From Clostridiales bacterium (lineage in GTDB: Bacteria; Bacillota; Clostridia; Peptostreptococcales; Acidaminobacteraceae), in assembly GCA_030445805.1 (NCBI GenBank), contig JASUTA010000002.1:1-41359 (forward strand): 41,359 nucleotides of DNA. Reading direction: 5' to 3'. Below are positions 133 through 11,141 of this stretch, piece after piece (positions within the stretch are counted from its first letter, which is position 1; every line of letters begins with the position of its first letter). The notes under the pieces are model-generated. The model was not told where the DNA came from, searched no databases, and saw nothing but the letters and a program-made list of their open reading frames with translations. The translations under genes were made by a program, and so were the position numbers.

Positions 133-1359
133 TTATAAAGCCGCGTTGATGGTTGCTTCATCAAGGGTATAGATTTTTTCTGAGATTTCTCCGCCTTTTG
201 TGATGACAACGGCAGGGACTTGGTCAACTTTCAGTTTCAGAGCAAGACCGTTTGATTTGTAGACATCAATGCGGTTGACAGCGATATTGCCTGCATGTTG
301 ATGCTCGATTTTTTCGATGGTTGCAAGGAACTCTCTTGCAGTGGCATCGATGGCATTGTAAACATAGATGAGGCCCGGTTTTTCGGATTGCATAATCTTT
401 GTATCAAAGATTTCTTTTTCCGCGATGTAGCGCTCTGCCGCTGTTCCGGCAATGGCACCGTCGCCGACTGCCGTCGCGATTTGTTTGAGCCATTTGTCTG
501 TAACGTCACCGATGGCGAATACGCCTTCGATACCGGTTTCTTTTTTCTCATTAACCGTGATGTATCTGTTTCGAGTCAAAGGCAATTGACCTTCAAAAAG
601 TTCCGTATTCGGGAGATATCCGATAAATTCGAAGCAGTTATCGCAGTCCACCGGAATTTCTTCTTCTGTTTTGACATTTTTGAGGACAACCGTCTTCAAA
701 TGTGCTTCATCGCCTTCGAAGCGTTTTACGACGCTGTTCCATACGAAATCCATTTTAGGATTGGCGAGAGCCGCTTCACGTGCGATTTCGTTACAGTCCA
801 TTTTACCTTCGTCATGCATAACCGAAACGGTTACTTTGCTTGCGAATTTTGTCAGGAACATACCTTCTTCAATAGCGGCATCTCCCGAACCGATGACGAC
901 GACATGTTTGCCGGTATTGGCAGCCGCATCACAAGTTGCACAGAAACTGATCCCTTTATCGAAGAGGAATTGTTCTTCGTTTTCTCCGCCCGTTGTTCTC
1001 GGACGACCGCCTGTTGCGATGATAACTGCTTTGGCAAGATATTTGTTTCTGAACGTTTCAACGACTTTTTCTTCGCCTTCGAGCGTAACGCTTGATACGG
1101 CAGTCAATTTGAATTCAACGCCGAGTTTTTTGGCTTGTGCTTTCATGAGATCCGTGATGGCTTCGCCTTTCGGTGCATCAGGAAATCCAGGATAGTTTGC
1201 GATTTCATTTGTGTATGTAGCGAGGCCGCCTACGAGTGCTTTTTCGAGAAGCAACGTTTTGAGGCGTGCACGGCCGGCGTAGATGCCGGCACTGAGGCCG
1301 GCAGGACCGCCACCTATGATAACCACGTCATAATTTTCTACTTTCTTTTCTCGACTCAT
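133..1359 (-). CDS. Thioredoxin reductase-like FAD-dependent oxidoreductase with a C-terminal thioredoxin-fold extension
   Basis: 408 aa; N-terminal GGGPAG dinucleotide-binding motif, FCATCDA redox CxxC, second nucleotide-binding motif VIGSGDAAIEEG, C-terminal FAIGDV; extension with cis-Pro-like QVPAVV. Confidence 0.9.
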   Translation of the reverse strand: MSREKKVENYDVVIIGGGPAGLSAGIYAGRARLKTLLLEKALVGGLATYTNEIANYPGFPDAPKGEAITDLMKAQAKKLGVEFKLTAVSSVTLEGEEKVVETFRNKYLAKAVIIATGGRPRTTGGENEEQFLFDKGISFCATCDAAANTGKHVVVIGSGDAAIEEGMFLTKFASKVTVSVMHDEGKMDCNEIAREAALANPKMDFVWNSVVKRFEGDEAHLKTVVLKNVKTEEEIPVDCDNCFEFIGYLPNTELFEGQLPLTRNRYITVNEKKETGIEGVFAIGDVTDKWLKQIATAVGDGAIAGTAAERYIAEKEIFDTKIMQSEKPGLIYVYNAIDATAREFLATIEKIEHQHAGNIAVNRIDVYKSNGLALKLKVDQVPAVVITKGGEISEKIYTLDEATINAAL

Positions 1360-1377: not shown

Positions 1378-1938
1378 TTACATAAAGAATTTTACGAGCA
1401 GTTTACTTCCGACGATTGCACCGAAGAACATGCCGACTGCAAACACCCATCCGGAGAGGGAGAGTGAAGCGATGCCGCTGTAAAGTGCGCCGATGTTACA
1501 TCCGAAAGCAAGTCTTGCGCCGTAGCCCATCAATAAACCGCCGATAACGGCCGCGATGATTTGGCGTACGGATTTGATTTTCTTAACTTTAAACCCTGAA
1601 GCGAGTAATGTCGCAGCCAGTGCGCCGGCAATAATGCCGAAGTTTCTCCAGCTTTCACCGTGATTCAAGATGCCTGCCGCCAGCGTTGATTGAGCGCCGG
1701 AGCTTGCAAAGTAGTACCATTTGTCTACACTGCCGCCGAGTCCCTGATAGATCCAAGCGCCCCAATAAGCGAGTGTGCCCGAAACGCCCCACGGATTTTT
1801 GGTTGCCGCAAGTGTGACAATTTGAAACAGCGAAAGGAGAACTGCTGCAGTAACATAAGTAAAAGGATTCTTCAACCACTTAATGTAGTATTCATTTTTC
1901 TTGACGCGATCGAAGAATTTCGTATTTGACTTTTCCAA
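1378..1938 (-). CDS. YeeE/YedE family (TsuA-like) membrane protein, half-size
   Basis: 186 aa, hydrophobic, carries the family motif GARLAFGCNIGALYSG. Confidence 0.85.
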   Translation of the reverse strand: MEKSNTKFFDRVKKNEYYIKWLKNPFTYVTAAVLLSLFQIVTLAATKNPWGVSGTLAYWGAWIYQGLGGSVDKWYYFASSGAQSTLAAGILNHGESWRNFGIIAGALAATLLASGFKVKKIKSVRQIIAAVIGGLLMGYGARLAFGCNIGALYSGIASLSLSGWVFAVGMFFGAIVGSKLLVKFFM

Positions 1939-1961: not shown

Positions 1962-2189
1962 CTATTTTGTTTTCTCGATGATGACTTCCCATTCGCCGTC
2001 GTCTACTTCTTCAACTTCAACATTGTGACCGTCTTTGCGTGCCCATTCAGGAACGTTTTTCATTGCACAGCTATGGTCGAGTTGGACGATAAGTACATCG
2101 CCTACTTCCATTTCGTTTAATTTGTTTTGCGCCTTTACCAAAGGTACCGGACAAGCTTCACCCAAGCAATCTAATACGACTTCTTTCAT
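1962..2189 (-). CDS. TusA/SirA-family sulfur carrier protein
   Basis: 75 aa from the internal start MKEVVLDCLGEACPVPLVKAQ; CPxP motif. The longer ORF start (2273) is less likely. Confidence 0.9.
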   Translation of the reverse strand: MKEVVLDCLGEACPVPLVKAQNKLNEMEVGDVLIVQLDHSCAMKNVPEWARKDGHNVEVEEVDDGEWEVIIEKTK

Positions 2190-2308: not shown

Positions 2309-2992
2309 TTAGTGAGATGCGCCTCTCTTTTTCTCATATTGTTCTGCAATGATGTAAAGTGCAGCGAGTAAGAGAAGCTGTAAAAGTACAGCACCCATCC
2401 AGCCGAAAACATCGGGCAGGAAGATTGAAGGGCCTTTGCTGATGAAGTGTTCTTTCCACCATCCGAAATCATGTGCGCCCCAGAGGGAGCCGATGATGAA
2501 GAACACAAGTGCGATGGTGTTCATGATAAAGCCTTCTCCGACACGCATCAGCGTTCCGGAAGCACATCCGCCGGCGATGACCATTCCGATACCGAACATG
2601 AAAGCGCCTACGAGAGTCGCTAAACTGATCGGTACGACATATCCCATACCCGGGATTGCAAGTCCTGCCTGAGCATAACCATATTTGATTGCCGTAAAGC
2701 CGATGGTTGTAATGGCCAGTGCAATAATGACGGCACGCGTCAGCGAAGTTCCGCCTGTCAAATAAGGATCACGCATGGATGCTGTGAAACAAAAACGCCC
2801 TTTTTGGAGAATGAATCCGAAGGCACAGCCGGTTAGCCAGAAAAATGCAACAGTTTGTGAGTGGGTATTGAGCCAAACCGCGATTACCGCGATCAGGACA
2901 ACCACCAACACGCCAAACGGAATTTGATTTTTCTTTGGCTTGCGACTTGCCGAAGAACGTCTTGAAGAAGCTCTGGTAGTTTGTTCAGCCAT
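2309..2992 (-). CDS. YeeE/YedE family (TsuA-like) membrane protein, second half
   Basis: 228 aa from MAEQTTRAS; motifs KGRFCFTASMRD and IAGGCASGTLMRVGEG. The longer ORF (to 3235) would run into the lysR gene. Confidence 0.85.
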   Translation of the reverse strand: MAEQTTRASSRRSSASRKPKKNQIPFGVLVVVLIAVIAVWLNTHSQTVAFFWLTGCAFGFILQKGRFCFTASMRDPYLTGGTSLTRAVIIALAITTIGFTAIKYGYAQAGLAIPGMGYVVPISLATLVGAFMFGIGMVIAGGCASGTLMRVGEGFIMNTIALVFFIIGSLWGAHDFGWWKEHFISKGPSIFLPDVFGWMGAVLLQLLLLAALYIIAEQYEKKRGASH

Positions 2993-3092
2993 TTGTTCAC
3001 ACTCCTGAAATAAAAAGTTTGCTATACTCTTAACAATCTCACACCAATATGATACCATTGAATTGGATTGAATGACCAATTGCAATTCTGAA

Positions 3093-3113
3093 TCAGTATA
3101 AGAAAAACTGATA
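3093..3113. promoter_or_regulatory. Candidate LysR operator: dyad ATCAGT-N9-ACTGAT containing ATAAGAAAAACTGATA
   Basis: Perfect 6-bp inverted arms in the intergenic region between divergent yeeE/yedE and lysR; near-identical 16-mer recurs at 8273-8288. Confidence 0.5.
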
Positions 3114-3161
3114 CCCAATGTTTTAAAAATGAGGCATGATATAAAGGGAAAGAGGTGAAAT

Positions 3162-4061
3162 ATGAATCTAGTTGCACTTGAGTACTTTAGAGAAGTCGTA
3201 GAGACAAAGAGCATTTCAAAGGTTGCTTCCAACAAACATATCTCACAGTCCGCGCTCAGTCAGAACATTCAAAAACTTGAAGACGAACTGGGATATCAAT
3301 TGCTGGAACGCAGCAATAAAGGGGTTGCACCGACCGAGGCAGGACGAATTTTGTTTACCTACTCGGGCACGATTCTCCGCATCTATAACAAGATGATGGA
3401 GGAATTGGACTCACTTCAGCACAGTGTTGAAAATATTAGAATTAACGGATATCTGTCTTTAGTGGACTATTCGTTGCCCTGTGTGCTCTACAAAGTAAAA
3501 AAACGGTACCCGAAGTATAATTTCGAAATGCAGACAAAGTCCAATGCCGATTCAATAACAGATCTCCTCAATGAGTTGACCGACCTTTGTTTTATTACGG
3601 AGGAACCTGTTGACGATCGGTTGGAATATGCGCGAATCGGAAAGGAACGCATTGTACTCGTCGCCAATTACGGGTCTAAAATTCCGGACCGAATCGATGT
3701 CAATGAACTTCAGCATTATGAAATGGTTCTATTGGACGATCAGGCACTGAATATCTCCATGTTCTTAAAACAGCAACTAAAAAAAGCCGGATTATCGCTT
3801 GAACAAATTCACATCATGTTCAAAGTCGATTCGATTCCGGCGGCCAAATCATCGGTCAGCAACAATTTGGGCATTTGCTTTTTGCCTTACATGTCCGTCA
3901 AGAAAGAGCTTTATGAAAAACGTTTAAAGCGCATCGAAGTCGAGAATTTCAACTTGGATTACGATATCTACCTCGTCGCTCGCAGACGTTGCGACAGAGA
4001 GCGTGCCATAACGGACATCTATAACTTTTTTATTGAAAATGGCGAAAAAGATTTTTGTTAA
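3162..4061 (+). CDS. LysR family transcriptional regulator
   Basis: 299 aa; N-terminal wHTH MNLVALEYFREVVETKSISKVASNKHISQSALSQNIQKLEDELGYQLLERSNKG. Confidence 0.92.
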   Translation: MNLVALEYFREVVETKSISKVASNKHISQSALSQNIQKLEDELGYQLLERSNKGVAPTEAGRILFTYSGTILRIYNKMMEELDSLQHSVENIRINGYLSLVDYSLPCVLYKVKKRYPKYNFEMQTKSNADSITDLLNELTDLCFITEEPVDDRLEYARIGKERIVLVANYGSKIPDRIDVNELQHYEMVLLDDQALNISMFLKQQLKKAGLSLEQIHIMFKVDSIPAAKSSVSNNLGICFLPYMSVKKELYEKRLKRIEVENFNLDYDIYLVARRRCDRERAITDIYNFFIENGEKDFC

Positions 4062-4084
4062 ATCAGAAATTTAAGATCAGAAAC

Positions 4085-4306
4085 TTAAGGTGTTTTTGTG
4101 ATGGTTATTTCCCAAACACCGTTGATGACTTCTTCGATTTCATAAGAGAAAGGGCTTTTCGAAAGATATTCGCGAATGCTTTCGATGACGCAGCTGTGAT
4201 CGACGACCATCTGAAAAGTTTCTCCGGGGGCGGTATGTGTGAGCTCATTTTGCATTTTGAGCATGGGAATCGGGCAAATATCGCCAAAACAATCAATTTT
4301 TTTCAT
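4085..4306 (-). CDS. TusA/SirA-family sulfur carrier protein (second copy)
   Basis: 73 aa; MKKIDCFGDICPIPMLKMQNEL with CPxP motif. Confidence 0.88.
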   Translation of the reverse strand: MKKIDCFGDICPIPMLKMQNELTHTAPGETFQMVVDHSCVIESIREYLSKSPFSYEIEEVINGVWEITITKTP

Positions 4307-4369
4307 GAACTGCCCTCCTTGTTATCGCCATTTTAGCAAATTTTTTTTGTACTTTCAATGGAGGCGTTT

Positions 4370-5110
4370 ATGCTTTATTCTATTGTCGTGCCTGTTTTTA
4401 ACAGCTCGGCATCATTAGGAAAACTGATTACGGAGATCAGAGACCATTTCGGTGAGGCATTTTGCGATGCGGCATCGGATATTGAGGTGCTGCTTATCGA
4501 CGATGCCAGCTCGGATGACAGTTGGCGGATTATTAAGCGGCTTGCAAATAAATATCACATGATCCATCCCATGCGCATGTCCCAAAACGTTGGGCAGCAG
4601 CGGGCCCTTTATTATGGCCTACTCGCCGCAAGGGGAGAATATGCCATCACAATTGACGATGATTTGCAGCATGATATCCGAGAAGTGGACAAGATGCTGG
4701 AACTTGCCAAGGAAGGCTGTGATCTGGTATTTGGCGTTTACGACAATTATGGAGAGCACGGTATAAGACATCTCGGATCCAAGTGGATCGGGTCGTTTTT
4801 CAGACGGAATTATCCCCAGCTTGAGGGCAATCGCGTCAGCAGTTATCGGCTGATTCAGCGCTCACTTTATCTACAATTGAAACCTTGCCCGGGGCATTTC
4901 GTTTATTTAAGCGCCGAACTTCTGCCTTATGCCTGCAAGACGGGTAATGTAAAAATATCTCGGAGACGACGCGCTTACGGACACTCCGGATATACACTGA
5001 GAAAATGTATAGCAATTGGTATTCGATTGAATTTTCATTATGGGTTGATGAGAAAACTGCCGTTTCCCGAGAGGAAAGGTGAGCATTCGGAGATACCCAG
5101 GAGGCGGTAA
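4370..5110 (+). CDS. Family 2 glycosyltransferase (polyprenyl-phosphate glycosyltransferase-like)
   Basis: MLYSIVVPVFNSSASLGKLITEI, DDASSDDSW, ITIDDDLQH motifs; GGAGG upstream of ATG 4370. Confidence 0.88.
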   Translation: MLYSIVVPVFNSSASLGKLITEIRDHFGEAFCDAASDIEVLLIDDASSDDSWRIIKRLANKYHMIHPMRMSQNVGQQRALYYGLLAARGEYAITIDDDLQHDIREVDKMLELAKEGCDLVFGVYDNYGEHGIRHLGSKWIGSFFRRNYPQLEGNRVSSYRLIQRSLYLQLKPCPGHFVYLSAELLPYACKTGNVKISRRRRAYGHSGYTLRKCIAIGIRLNFHYGLMRKLPFPERKGEHSEIPRRR

Positions 5111-5113
5111 AAC

Positions 5114-6361
5114 ATGCGCATGCTGATGGTAGGTGCGGGAAGTTGTCAAATAAGCGGAATCAAGCGACTGAAAGCCATGGGCATCGAAGTCGTCGCCGCA
5201 GACTACAATGAACGGACACCGGGGAAAGAAATGGCGGATTTTGCGGTTTTGGCAGATGCTTTTGATGCAGGTGCCATTGCAAAAACCGCAGCAGACTATG
5301 CCGTTGACGGCATTATGACAATGGGAACGGACCAGCCGGTGCTCTCTGTGATGCGTTCGGCCAATGCGCTCGGACTCAGCGCCAGTCTTTCTGACGAAAC
5401 GGCCCTTTGGGTCACCAATAAAAAATATATGAAACAACGCTTTACGGCATTTGATATCCCGACGGTGCCTTATCAGATATTGACCCGTCCGGATGAACCG
5501 ATTGCAATAAAAGGGCCGTATGTGACCAAGCCGTTTGACTCTCAGGGACAACGCGGCATTTTTCTTTTAAAGGAGCCGGGGGCGGTGCGGTCGCACTTTG
5601 AAAAGGTTCTGCGCTATTCAAGAGAAAAAGAAATTCTGATTGAATCTTTTTATCCGAGTGATGAAGTGACTGTCAGCGGATGGGTTTCAGACGCAAGGGT
5701 ACACGTGCTCACTCTGACGGATCGCGTGACATTTGATCCTGAAGCACACATCGGCGTATGTGTGGCACACGAATACCCGTCGATTTATGCAGAATCGCAC
5801 GGAGAAGAAATATTGGCTCTGACAGAGCGAATTTGTAAGGTGTTCGGCATCGAAGACGGTCCGATTTATTTTCAGATGTTGATCGGTTCGGAGGGCATTT
5901 GCGTCAATGAAATTGCCTGCCGACTCGGTGGGGCCTATGAAGATATCAGTATTCCGTGGGCCACCGGCGTGGATGTTTTGGACCTTCAGATCAAAACGGC
6001 ACTCGGTATAAAAGAGGCTTTTTCGGTGCTGAATCCCTATTGCGGATCCGGACTTTCGCTGCATGTTCCTAAAAAATATTTCAGTACGCAACTCTTTTTT
6101 TGCAGACCCGGGAAAATTGAAGAAATGCCGACTCTTGAATCGATAGAAGCATTGCCGTTTGTCGTTTCGGCGGGCTATAACATCAAGGCCGGCGATGATA
6201 TGGAATCGATAGAAAACGCTTCTCAACGCGTCGGATTTGCGGTGGTCGTCGGAGCGAGCGAAACGGAAATTCAAAAAAATATTGATTTATTTTATGAAAA
6301 AATGGCCATCAAAAATTCGCAGGGAGAAAATTTAGTAATAAAAAGACACCGCAACAGATAA
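5114..6361 (+). CDS. ATP-grasp domain protein (carbamoyl-phosphate synthase large subunit/carboxylate-amine ligase-like)
   Basis: 415 aa; MRMLMVGAGSCQISGIKRLKAMGIEVVAADYN, KPFDSQGQRGIFLL, VNEIACRLGGAYED. Confidence 0.82.
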   Translation: MRMLMVGAGSCQISGIKRLKAMGIEVVAADYNERTPGKEMADFAVLADAFDAGAIAKTAADYAVDGIMTMGTDQPVLSVMRSANALGLSASLSDETALWVTNKKYMKQRFTAFDIPTVPYQILTRPDEPIAIKGPYVTKPFDSQGQRGIFLLKEPGAVRSHFEKVLRYSREKEILIESFYPSDEVTVSGWVSDARVHVLTLTDRVTFDPEAHIGVCVAHEYPSIYAESHGEEILALTERICKVFGIEDGPIYFQMLIGSEGICVNEIACRLGGAYEDISIPWATGVDVLDLQIKTALGIKEAFSVLNPYCGSGLSLHVPKKYFSTQLFFCRPGKIEEMPTLESIEALPFVVSAGYNIKAGDDMESIENASQRVGFAVVVGASETEIQKNIDLFYEKMAIKNSQGENLVIKRHRNR

Positions 6362-6376
6362 CGGTGTCTTTTTTAT
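6341..6376. terminator. Bidirectional intrinsic terminator
   Basis: AAAAGACACCG (6341-6351) / CGGTGTCTTTT (6362-6372), then T run; between convergent genes. Confidence 0.85.
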
Positions 6377-6400
6377 ATAATCGACCTTAAGCGCCGAGTG

Positions 6401-8095
6401 CTATTCATTTTTCGATTCATCGGGAAGGACGCGATAAATACGGGTTTCCCAAGGATAGGTGCCGACATATTTGGCAATCCGCATGCCGTAGGTGGGGTCA
6501 TCAATGGCGGCGACGAGTGTTGTTCGCTCATCAATAAAGGCATGAAGTGCCGGCATAAAATCCAACGTACCGTAAATGAAATCCCATCGCGGGCTGGTTT
6601 GTTCCATGTACCCCATTTCATCGTGAAGGACGATGTATTCAATCCCCCGGGCTTCAATATACTCCGATAGGGAAAGTCCGTTTTCTTCAAGCAGAGCCAA
6701 GTTGCGAATGTCGTAAAACGCATAGGGATCAAAGCCTTCGATGACGTTGATATTGGAAAGTTGAATGGCATCGGCAGGGATGATTTCATGCAAAGCGGCA
6801 AGGGTTTCGGCATAACCGCGCTGATAGGGTTGGGCGTCAAAATAAGATTGCAGGTCTTGTCTCAAACCCAAAAGTGAAAGGCTCACCAAAAGCCCACAGA
6901 GGATATAAGTCCATTTTGCGGAAGCGATTTGCGCTCGCATATCGGATGGAAGGAACCGACCCGTTAATTTGAAGAGGCTTTGTAAGGCGGATGCGGTGAG
7001 TAAAAGTCCGAAAGGAAAGAGAAAGACAACGGACGTCTGGTTGTACCGGCCGATAATGAGTAGTCCCGCAAGGAGGGCGATAAAGGCGGCCGTATCCATT
7101 TGCAGTGCGGACAAATCAATCTCTGAATGATTTTGGCGACGCAGAAAATAAACGGTTAGGAGGCAAACAGAAACCGCGAGTGCCGCTGTGAAAACCGTCA
7201 ATTCCGTGCGGATATCAAAGAGGTCATAAGTGCCGCCGATGCGATAGTAAAGTTTATACCAGAACCAAAAAAATCCTGTGAGCCGTGAAGTGGCTTGAAT
7301 TTCTATTCCCAGCGAAGCGCCGTAGGAAAAATACTCCGAGAGGAGATGCGGATTCCACCGGTAGCCGATAATCAGGTACAGTGCGGCGCCGGATGCAACG
7401 AGAGCAAAGAACGTCACCAATGACCGCAACGGTCTCTTGCCGGACAGTACCTGGATGCCCATGACGGCGAAAAAGACGGCTGCAATCAGAAAACTGTTGG
7501 GGTGAACGCCGATTCCGAGACACACCAACAGCGCAGGAAACCAAGCTTTCCCGTTTGGACGGCTCAGAGAAAAAAATCCGATAAGCACGAGCATAAGAAT
7601 AATCATATCTTGGCGTCCGAATCTGGAAGCGTACAGCCACTGCACATTGAGCGCGAGAACGATGGTCAGCACAGAGGCGATCAAATGGCCCCCGGAGGTA
7701 TTCGAAAACCGCGTCAGTGCCGTTTTGTAGAAAGCGATGAGCGCGGCCGAAGCGGCGAGAAGCGATAAAAATCGCATGGCAAAAGCCGTATTTCCCAAAA
7801 TGGAAATCACGCCGGATTCCATGAGCAGATAGAGCCACCGAAAAGGATGTATAACGCGTGGATAGAGGTCGAAAAAGGGTTCTGTGACTTTGAAAGTACC
7901 TTCATGCATAAAGGCTTCGGCAGTTCCGAGAAGCCAGAGCTCATCCGAATGAATCCTCGGAAATTCGAGAAGCGTCAATCCGTTGATGACTAAAAAAGCC
8001 CCGACAATCAAAAAAATCGGAAAAAACGTTTGCCATCGGATTTTGAAACGGTGGCGATCGGCGATGGGATTAAAAAAATGAGCGAATAATTTCAT
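6401..8095 (-). CDS. GT39/ArnT-like membrane glycosyltransferase (dolichyl/polyprenyl-P-mannose type)
   Basis: 564 aa, multi-TM; N-terminal LLEFPRIHSDELWLLGTAEAFMHEG resembles PMT/ArnT loop-1 acidic motif. Confidence 0.75.
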   Translation of the reverse strand: MKLFAHFFNPIADRHRFKIRWQTFFPIFLIVGAFLVINGLTLLEFPRIHSDELWLLGTAEAFMHEGTFKVTEPFFDLYPRVIHPFRWLYLLMESGVISILGNTAFAMRFLSLLAASAALIAFYKTALTRFSNTSGGHLIASVLTIVLALNVQWLYASRFGRQDMIILMLVLIGFFSLSRPNGKAWFPALLVCLGIGVHPNSFLIAAVFFAVMGIQVLSGKRPLRSLVTFFALVASGAALYLIIGYRWNPHLLSEYFSYGASLGIEIQATSRLTGFFWFWYKLYYRIGGTYDLFDIRTELTVFTAALAVSVCLLTVYFLRRQNHSEIDLSALQMDTAAFIALLAGLLIIGRYNQTSVVFLFPFGLLLTASALQSLFKLTGRFLPSDMRAQIASAKWTYILCGLLVSLSLLGLRQDLQSYFDAQPYQRGYAETLAALHEIIPADAIQLSNINVIEGFDPYAFYDIRNLALLEENGLSLSEYIEARGIEYIVLHDEMGYMEQTSPRWDFIYGTLDFMPALHAFIDERTTLVAAIDDPTYGMRIAKYVGTYPWETRIYRVLPDESKNE

Positions 8096-8272
8096 AAGTG
8101 GACCCTTTCTTGCTATATATTGTTTTCAAAACGGAACAAATCCTGATATTTAAAGGCCTTTCACGCACTGGTTTTCAAACATTTTTATTTTATAATTCTA
8201 TCATAATTGCTTTTCTAAAGGGGAAAAAACAAATGAATGTTAAAAAAGTATCATTCTAATAAAGAATGCTGC

Positions 8273-8288
8273 ATAAGTAAAACTGATA
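8273..8288 (+). promoter_or_regulatory. Candidate LysR half-operator ATAAGTAAAACTGATA upstream of the rhodanese genes
   Basis: 15/16 identical to 3098-3113; lies about 21 nt before TATAAT at 8310-8315. Confidence 0.45.
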
Positions 8289-8413
8289 ACTATTTTTTGG
8301 AGCTTAGCGTATAATAAGAGCGTGAAGTGTGAAAAAATTGACGTACTTCATTGTCTATTAATTAACAATATACTCCAAAGAACAATCTCACAAATTCGTT
8401 TATGGAGGTCAAT

Positions 8414-9328
8414 ATGGCAAGAAAGAATTCGACGATCAAGATTTTGCTTGTGTCTTTGTGCCTCATGTTTGTCTTGTCATCGTGTGCGATCGATACCACT
8501 TACCCGGGGACGATGAATGTCGTCGAAGCGGCGAAAGTGATCAGCGATTCAGCGTCTGACGCAAATGTCGTTGTAATCGATGCCCGTTCTGCCGAGGATT
8601 ATGCAAAGGGCCATATGGAAGGTGCGATTAATCTCGCTCCGTCGGAATTGGTCGTCGATACGCCGGTGCCGGCAACTTTGGCGCCGAAAGATCAAGTTGA
8701 AGCGGTTCTCAGCAGCAAAGGTATTGCAAATGACAGCGTTGTATATGTTTATGACGCAAACGGCGGGGTCAATTCGGCACGTGTTTGGTGGACGCTCAAA
8801 GTCTACGGACATCAAACGGTTATGATTGTCAACGGCGGCGCCAATGCGCTGGTCAATGCCGGTGCGGTGTTGACACTTGATGCACCTGCAATTACGCCGA
8901 CTCAATACGTGGCATCCGATGCAAACACGGCGATGATTGCGACTTTTGACGAAGTCAGCAAATATGCGGAACAACCGCAAGAGGGTGTTGTGATTCTCGA
9001 TGTTCGTTCTTTAGCGGAATATGAAGCAGGTTATATCCCGGGTGCCGTGCTGTACCCACACACGAATAACCTTTATTCCGACGGGACGTTCATGTCCAGC
9101 CGAGATATCGGACTGTTTTATGGGGATAAGGACATTCAAAAAGACGATACCATTATCGTTTACTGCGGATCCGGTTTCCGTGCTTCTCAAGCGGTTGCAT
9201 TACTGCAAGAAGCGGGCTTTGAAAATGTAAAATTGTACGACGGTTCCTGGGCGGAATGGTCGACAAAAGGGGACGTTGCGGCACCTGCCGAAGATGAAGC
9301 ACCGGTAGGCGCGTCAGATGGGTCCTGA
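8414..9328 (+). CDS. Two-domain thiosulfate sulfurtransferase (rhodanese) lipoprotein
   Basis: Lipobox LSSC; domain 1 loop VYDANGGVNSAR lacks Cys; domain 2 loop VYCGSGFRAS has the catalytic Cys. GGAGG upstream of ATG 8414. Confidence 0.88.
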   Translation: MARKNSTIKILLVSLCLMFVLSSCAIDTTYPGTMNVVEAAKVISDSASDANVVVIDARSAEDYAKGHMEGAINLAPSELVVDTPVPATLAPKDQVEAVLSSKGIANDSVVYVYDANGGVNSARVWWTLKVYGHQTVMIVNGGANALVNAGAVLTLDAPAITPTQYVASDANTAMIATFDEVSKYAEQPQEGVVILDVRSLAEYEAGYIPGAVLYPHTNNLYSDGTFMSSRDIGLFYGDKDIQKDDTIIVYCGSGFRASQAVALLQEAGFENVKLYDGSWAEWSTKGDVAAPAEDEAPVGASDGS

Positions 9329-9356: not shown

Positions 9357-11141
9357 ATGATGAAGAAGTGGTTATCCGTATTACTGGCCTTAGTGCTCGT
9401 CTTATCCGTGACGGCCTGTGGCTCTGAACCGGCACAGAATGCAACCGATTCAATGAACATTGCGGGAGAATCTTCCGTAGAGCAAACGACAGCAGAAGCG
9501 ACCGAAGCAGCCGATTCAGGCTTAGATGCTCTTGTGACGGCTTATTTTGAAAACATGCCGGATCACATTTACAAAATTGCTCAAGACGAATTTGTTTCAA
9601 AAGTTGCAGCCGGTGAAGACATGGTCATCATCGACATCAGAAATGCAGCAGATTATGAAGCCGGCCACATTCAAGGCGCAGTCAATCTTCCTTGGGGCAG
9701 TGCCATTGCGGAAGGGCTTTCAAGCATTCCTTCCGGAAAACCGGTCTATATTTATTGCTATACCGGTCAAACAGCAGGCCAAGCCGTTATGACACTCAAT
9801 TTTGCAGGCATTGAAGCCCGCAGTGTAAACTTTGGATGGAATCTTGGAATTTCAAAGGTTGACGGCGTAGACGCCTACATAACGACAGAAGCGTCTTCAT
9901 TCGAAGGCGAAGGATATACAATTGATCCTGATGTCCAAGCAGCAGTAACGGCTTATTACAATGGCCTTGCAGATGTTGCGGACACAGAATACAAGAATTA
10001 TAAAATTTCAGAAGACAGCCTGAAAGAAAAACTGGATGCAGGCGACGACAGCATCTATGTACTCTCTGTCAGAAAAGCAGCAGATTATGCGGCAGGTCAT
10101 ATTGCAACCGCAGCCAATATTCCTTTCGGAAAAGATATGGCTTCCGAGTTCGGTACATTGCCGACTGATAAGACCATCGTGGTTTACTGCTACACGGGTC
10201 AAACTGCCGGTCAAACGACAGCGGCGCTCAGACTGATGGGCTATGATGCCGTATCGCTTAACGGTGGTATGGGAACAGCTGCAAATGCACCTTCCGGTTG
10301 GGCCAACAAAGGGTATCCGGTCGTCAATGAAGTGACGGATGCGCTGGATGCACTTTACGGTACAATGCCGGATCACATTTACAAAATTGCTCAAGACGAA
10401 TTCGTTTCAAAAGTTGCAGCCGGTGAAGATCTTGCAATCATCGACATCAGAAGCGCGGCAGATTATGAAGCGGGTCACGTTAAAGGAGCCGTTAATATGC
10501 CTTGGGGCCCTGCGATTGCAGAACAACTCGGCACAATCCCGACGGACCAAACGGTATACGTTTACTGCTATACCGGACAAACGGCGGGACAAACGGTTAC
10601 ACTGCTTAACGTAGCGGGCATCGATGCACGCAGTGTCAACTTTGGTTGGAATCTCGGTATTTCAAAAGTTGACGGCGTAGATGCGGTTACGACAACGGAA
10701 CCGGCGACTTTCGACGGCTCAAGAGAAGTTCCTGAAGCCATTCAAACGGCGATTACAAACTACTACAACGGTCTTGCCGATGTATCGGAAACCGAGTACA
10801 AGAACTATAAGATTTCAGAAGATGATCTTAAAGCGAAAGTAGACGCTAAAGATGATTCCATCGTTATTCTCTCTGTCAGAAAAGCGGCTGATTACGAAGC
10901 AGGCCATATTGAAGGGGCGATCAACGTGCCTTTCGGAAGCGGTATGCTCGACGGATTCAAAGACGTTTTGCCGACAGATAAAACCATTGTCGTTTATTGT
11001 TACACAGGCCAAACAGCAGGTCAGGCAACAGCGGCGCTCAGATTGATGGGCTATGATGCCGTATCGCTTAACGGCGGTATGGGAACAGCTGCTAATGCAC
11101 CTTCCGGTTGGGCCAACAAGGGATATCCCGTCGTTCAGTAA
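9357..11141 (+). CDS. Four-domain rhodanese lipoprotein
   Basis: 594 aa; lipobox VTAC; four copies of YCYTGQTAGQ, each after a DIR/SVR...ADYxAGH motif. Confidence 0.9.
   Translation: MMKKWLSVLLALVLVLSVTACGSEPAQNATDSMNIAGESSVEQTTAEATEAADSGLDALVTAYFENMPDHIYKIAQDEFVSKVAAGEDMVIIDIRNAADYEAGHIQGAVNLPWGSAIAEGLSSIPSGKPVYIYCYTGQTAGQAVMTLNFAGIEARSVNFGWNLGISKVDGVDAYITTEASSFEGEGYTIDPDVQAAVTAYYNGLADVADTEYKNYKISEDSLKEKLDAGDDSIYVLSVRKAADYAAGHIATAANIPFGKDMASEFGTLPTDKTIVVYCYTGQTAGQTTAALRLMGYDAVSLNGGMGTAANAPSGWANKGYPVVNEVTDALDALYGTMPDHIYKIAQDEFVSKVAAGEDLAIIDIRSAADYEAGHVKGAVNMPWGPAIAEQLGTIPTDQTVYVYCYTGQTAGQTVTLLNVAGIDARSVNFGWNLGISKVDGVDAVTTTEPATFDGSREVPEAIQTAITNYYNGLADVSETEYKNYKISEDDLKAKVDAKDDSIVILSVRKAADYEAGHIEGAINVPFGSGMLDGFKDVLPTDKTIVVYCYTGQTAGQATAALRLMGYDAVSLNGGMGTAANAPSGWANKGYPVVQ
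9555..11138 (+). repeat. Two tandem ~810-bp coding units, each with two rhodanese domains
   Basis: ATGCCGGATCACATTTACAAAATTGCTCAAGACGAATT at 9555 and 10365; CTATGATGCCGTATCGCTTAACGG at 10241 and 11051; offset 810 bp both times. Confidence 0.9.

Follow-up and report, generated by a model that had tools for sequence, protein, structure and literature searches.

A single LysR-type regulator very probably controls both the yeeE/lysR intergenic region and the rhodanese operon of a conserved 11-kb gene cluster, and the matching boxes at the two promoters would be its operators (Table 1). The cluster lies in the window, by which we mean the whole 41,359-nt stretch of DNA that was analysed, from a bacterium of the Fusibacter family. 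The literature that we found on sulfur and thiosulfate reduction in Fusibacter (PMC9751042, PMC5525254) describes neither a gene set nor its control. Tied together by a predicted regulatory code and by its 11-kb gene order, the cluster is a concrete candidate for the Fusibacter sulfur pathway and its control, and it predicts which promoters matter for testing sulfur control. A preliminary description had proposed one LysR sulfur regulon that joined lysR/yeeE, the rhodanese genes and a site upstream of tusA; computational footprinting, cross-trained matrices, a genome scan and co-variation uphold the first two members, whereas the tusA site falls away.

Table 1. Genes and candidate regulatory features of the cluster, in window coordinates
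Feature	Position	Strand	Basis or remark
Thioredoxin reductase-like protein, C-terminal thioredoxin-like domain	133..1359	-	Pfam
yeeE half 2 (Sulf_transp)	1378..1938	-	Pfam PF04143
tusA1	1962..2189	-	Pfam TusA
yeeE half 1 (Sulf_transp), first gene of divergent operon	2309..2992	-	Pfam PF04143
Rex-like operator TTGCTATACTCTTAACAA, near yeeE start	3019..3036		2 mismatches to TTGTTAANNNNTTAACAA; conserved in ~20/29 loci
ACAATCTCACA element, yeeE/lysR copy	3033..3043	+	2 of 3 genome copies are in this cluster; pair recurs in relatives
Likely yeeE -10, TATCAT	3049..3054	-	Conserved TATGATA block in alignment; promoter scan TGGTCA-18-TATCAT, weak
LysR-type box A, yeeE/lysR intergenic	3092..3119	+	Core 3098-3112 ATAAG-N5-CTGAT (AT-N11-AT); best match genome-wide
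lysR, LysR-type regulator, presumed binder	3162..4061	+	Pfam HTH_1, LysR_substrate
tusA2, directly downstream of lysR, conserved there	4085..4306	-	Pfam TusA; synteny
GT2, ATP-grasp ligase-like and integral-membrane glycosyltransferase-like genes	4370..8095		Between sulfur blocks; order kept in L033-L041
Second AT-N11-AT box, perfect dyad ATTCT-N5-AGAAT (ATTCTAATAAAGAAT)	8253..8267	+	Exactly 20 bp before box B
LysR-type box B, rhodanese promoter	8267..8294	+	Core 8273-8287 ATAAG-N5-CTGAT; genome-wide rank 2
Rhodanese operon -10, TATAAT	8310..8315	+	Invariant in 10-genome alignment
Hairpin, 5' end of rhodanese leader	8322..8351	+	Leader fold; similar in most relatives with different pairing sequences
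Rex-like operator TTGTCTATTAATTAACAA, rhodanese leader	8351..8368		2 mismatches; 1 in many relatives
ACAATCTCACA element, rhodanese leader copy	8382..8392	+	CAATCTCACA invariant in leader alignment
Rhodanese 1, predicted lipoprotein	8414..9328	+	Pfam Rhodanese, two stretches
Rhodanese 2, predicted lipoprotein, four rhodanese domains	9357..11141	+	Pfam, four stretches

The LysR protein carries PF00126 and PF03466, both above cut-off. Nine relatives' loci share one gene order: trxB, yeeE half, tusA, yeeE half, lysR, tusA2, GT2, ATP-grasp, the membrane glycosyltransferase-like gene, rhodanese 1, rhodanese 2 and degT, except that tusA is duplicated in some loci and that one locus is cut by a contig end. 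The glycan genes had been called unrelated; their order is kept in all nine loci, and they are therefore part of the conserved cluster. We predict that these genes, lying between the two promoters, belong to the same unit. The YeeE transporter (1378-2992) consists of two half-genes flanking tusA, and each of the two corresponds to a different half of the YedE/TsuA models. For the rhodanese 1 reading frame, an alternative opening exists at 8402, and the opening at 8414 fits the ribosome-binding site.

The shared 16-nt motif was correctly placed by the preliminary description, reading ATAAGAAAAACTGATA at 3098-3113 and ATAAGTAAAACTGATA at 8273-8288 of the window, and both copies are conserved in relatives. 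The pattern ATAAG[A/T]AAAACTGATA occurs solely at 3098 and 8273 when up to two mismatches are allowed in the 2.29-Mb assembly. At the same tolerance, ATAAGWAAAACTGATA has 2 matches across the assembly and a backwards-read control pattern has 13. The assembly is about 69% complete, and additional motif sites may therefore be absent from it. When 34 sites are compared, positions A7, T8, A13, A14 and T21 never vary and A20 hardly does; the resulting AT-N11-AT pattern gives T-N11-A, the signature of LysR-type sites. The core conserved across sites is ATAAG-N5-C[TC][GT]AT, containing an inner dyad, ATAAG-N5-CTTAT, whose second half has drifted to C[TC]GAT in the window's branch.

Other candidate sites in the window were rejected. 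The dyad ATCAGT-N9-ACTGAT, proposed earlier around the first copy, is present and perfect (3092-3097 and 3107-3112), but no relative keeps it; it is private to this genome and is not a conserved operator. The weaker variant upstream of tusA (2254-2270) exists as it was written, but it contains an insertion, amounts to six mismatches when read ungapped and is without a counterpart in relatives, where the two genes are usually separated by a short intergenic stretch. A third window match, at 4414-4429, lies within the GT2 coding sequence and has a low matrix score.

lysR has orthologues across the family; those most similar to it (72-80% identity) come from Fusibacter and related MAGs. The 28-bp box is conserved before lysR and before the rhodanese operon in about 26 related genomes. 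It stands upstream of the lysR orthologue in 26 of 29 loci, at -60 to -175; among the remaining loci one has a reversed copy, and the two most distant have no box. Relatives have this box before the rhodanese gene too, at a similar distance. In three genomes rhodanese 2 comes first, and there the box, the Rex-like site and the ACAATCTCACA element precede the new first gene; the module therefore follows the promoter, not one gene.

Each promoter's sites predict the site at the other promoter. A matrix built from 22 relatives' lysR sites, with the window's own site left out, recovers box B (8267) with p = 5.9e-9 and E = 0.0005 in the window, and a matrix built likewise from 16 relatives' rhodanese sites recovers box A (3092) with p = 1.6e-9. 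Scanning the window and the nine relatives' loci yields exactly two strong sites in each, followed by a big drop. We also ran a sequence-only model on 19 whole genomes, its training alignment including the window's own sites. For this genome it puts the two cluster sites on top (E = 3.4e-5 and 2.3e-4, with the next at 0.10), and a cluster site ranks first in every genome with a comparable listing. The third match in this genome (C123:53-79, E = 0.10) was rejected, being compatible with chance and adjacent to no recognised sulfur gene.

LysR regulators with divergent, autoregulated promoters, such as CatM/BenM and CcpC, have a T-N11-A site near -65 and tandem sites at the activated promoter, and promoters activated by LysR regulators usually combine a poor -35 with two tandem sites, at about -62 and -42. 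Taking transcription starts from the -10 hexamers, we place the centre of box A near -63 for yeeE and the centres of the tandem rhodanese boxes near -62 and -42, which is the usual arrangement for LysR activation. The preliminary description was right to place the second motif copy just before the TATAAT of the rhodanese genes. Nineteen loci have a box B that matches the strict pattern; its centre precedes the -10 by 30-31 bp there, and 14 of these loci also have a second AT-N11-AT box exactly 20 bp further upstream. Strict matches are weak or absent at the expected spacing in about 8 of 27 rhodanese loci. Both promoters have a poor -35, as expected under activation but also if other factors act there.

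According to the arrangement that we favour, LysR would bind box A at the divergent promoter and so regulate both lysR itself and the yeeE-tusA-yeeE-trxB operon. It would also bind the tandem pair (8253-8267 and 8273-8287) and, with a sulfur compound as the signal, most likely activate the rhodanese operon. We infer LysR as the binder, the activation itself and the effector, which may be thiosulfate, sulfane sulfur or a product. That LysR instead represses the rhodanese operon appears unlikely: box B, centred near -42, overlaps the -35 position as such a reading would have it, but the tandem pair with its poor -35 is typical of activation, and the position of box A fits activation of yeeE. The predicted activator shares with CatM/BenM and CcpC its HTH and effector domains, a divergent target operon, a T-N11-A box and tandem sites, but it is distant from them in sequence and its second target lies 5 kb away, past other genes. 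As a compact conserved LysR regulon, the predicted system is of an ordinary kind.

The function of the cluster could be sought in selenium rather than in sulfur, the LysR protein being nearest to a selenium-associated family and YeeE/TusA resembling YedE/YedF, though we judge this improbable. The best NCBIfam model for the YeeE halves is NF033796, and the best-scoring named model for LysR is NF040786 (LysR_Se/HrsM), a family that published work connects with YedE/YedF-like genes (PMC5322559). However, the matches fall well below curated cut-offs: LysR scores 170.7 bits against NF040786 (cut-off 250), the YeeE halves score 49.8 and 75.5 bits against TsuA (cut-off 400) and also stay under the YedE cut-off, and the TsuB cut-off is likewise not reached. 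None of the genes conserved in the cluster was recognised as a sel gene. The selD gene is present in 19 of 19 genomes tested, in this one on another contig; being carried by all, it was rejected as a discriminator. We prefer sulfur because the cluster encodes secreted rhodaneses and because of genus physiology: members of Fusibacter reduce sulfur, the majority also reduce thiosulfate, and a role as an electron sink has been described for thiosulfate in the genus (PMC9751042).

Two sulfur systems resemble the cluster in part. TsuA/TsuB (YeeE/YeeD) thiosulfate uptake likewise pairs a YeeE-type transporter with a TusA-like partner, whereas here the transporter is split with tusA between its halves, is divergent from lysR and is accompanied by secreted multi-domain rhodaneses. 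Rhodanese-like proteins also occur in the fermentative, thiosulfate-reducing anaerobe Halanaerobium, in rhodanese-linked thiosulfate reduction (PMC5497025).

It is quite improbable that the boxes are sites of another transcription factor, whose gene lies elsewhere, and that lysR is just one of its targets. Another regulator, Rex, probably does act at the same promoters, but the AT-N11-AT symmetry is the pattern of the LysR family, the box occupies the classic divergent autoregulatory position beside lysR in nearly all genomes, and the absence of any other convincing site genome-wide is not what one would expect of a regulator encoded at a distance. The two box cores of one genome also resemble each other more closely than cores taken from different genomes do (62 mismatches versus 75.5 expected, 0.00075 of shuffles, in a shuffle that ignores shared ancestry), and this likeness fits one protein tracking both boxes; over the full 28 bp with flanks the likeness is not clear (0.12 of shuffles). 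A chance match of two AT-rich intergenic sequences has a practically negligible probability: the window statistics are modest (three matches at up to three mismatches versus 0.94 expected, with 8 of 100 shuffles reaching three), but on the sequence evidence they are outweighed by what is decisive, the conservation of both places in about 26 genomes at fixed spacing, and independent matrices refute it.

Alongside the LysR boxes, both promoters carry Rex-like sites that lie, in most relatives, within one or two mismatches of TTGTTAANNNNTTAACAA, the form of a published Clostridiaceae Rex motif (PMC9600882). At up to two mismatches there are 30 such sites genome-wide versus 24 for a reversed control, counts that alone are no proof. 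A rex gene (PF06971 above cut-off) was found in 6 of 6 genomes tested, this one included. Rex-like sites also stand before 3-hydroxyacyl-CoA dehydrogenase and acyl-CoA dehydrogenase genes of the same genome (L163, L174, ~1501), and such genes are typical Rex targets.

Taken at sequence level, the sites suggest joint control of both promoters by LysR and by NADH through Rex. PMC7531388, citing Christensen 2015, describes Rex in Desulfovibrio as repressing the sulfate-activation gene sat and releasing it at high NADH, and what the cluster would have in common with such anaerobe Rex regulons is a Rex-like operator at an electron-sink sulfur pathway. Here, by comparison, the targets are sulfur import and rhodanese operons, LysR boxes are present too, and the Rex site is predicted. 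A two-input switch is conceivable, and we put it forward tentatively, at somewhat less than even confidence: LysR would report a sulfur compound, Rex would report NADH/NAD+, and ACAATCTCACA would supply a third regulatory site, of a kind not described before. If this switch exists, a fermenter would open its sulfur electron sink only with sulfur present and NADH high.

The ACAATCTCACA element is strictly conserved in relatives, is almost confined to the cluster and adjoins the Rex-like sites. It stands on the same strand at both promoters and therefore has opposite orientations relative to the two operons. We rejected it as the site of a genome-wide regulator, since its copies outside the cluster, which are few, look mostly like coding sequence where they were inspected by eye. 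The hairpin at 8322-8351 is possibly an mRNA-stabilising stem; the rhodanese leader matched no known RNA family in Rfam, and RNAalifold gave no consensus fold for the whole leader from a 16-sequence alignment. Within the leader (8373-8410), an ACTCC preceding ACAATCTCACA may base-pair with GGAGG, the ribosome-binding site of rhodanese 1, and this arrangement is conserved in close relatives.
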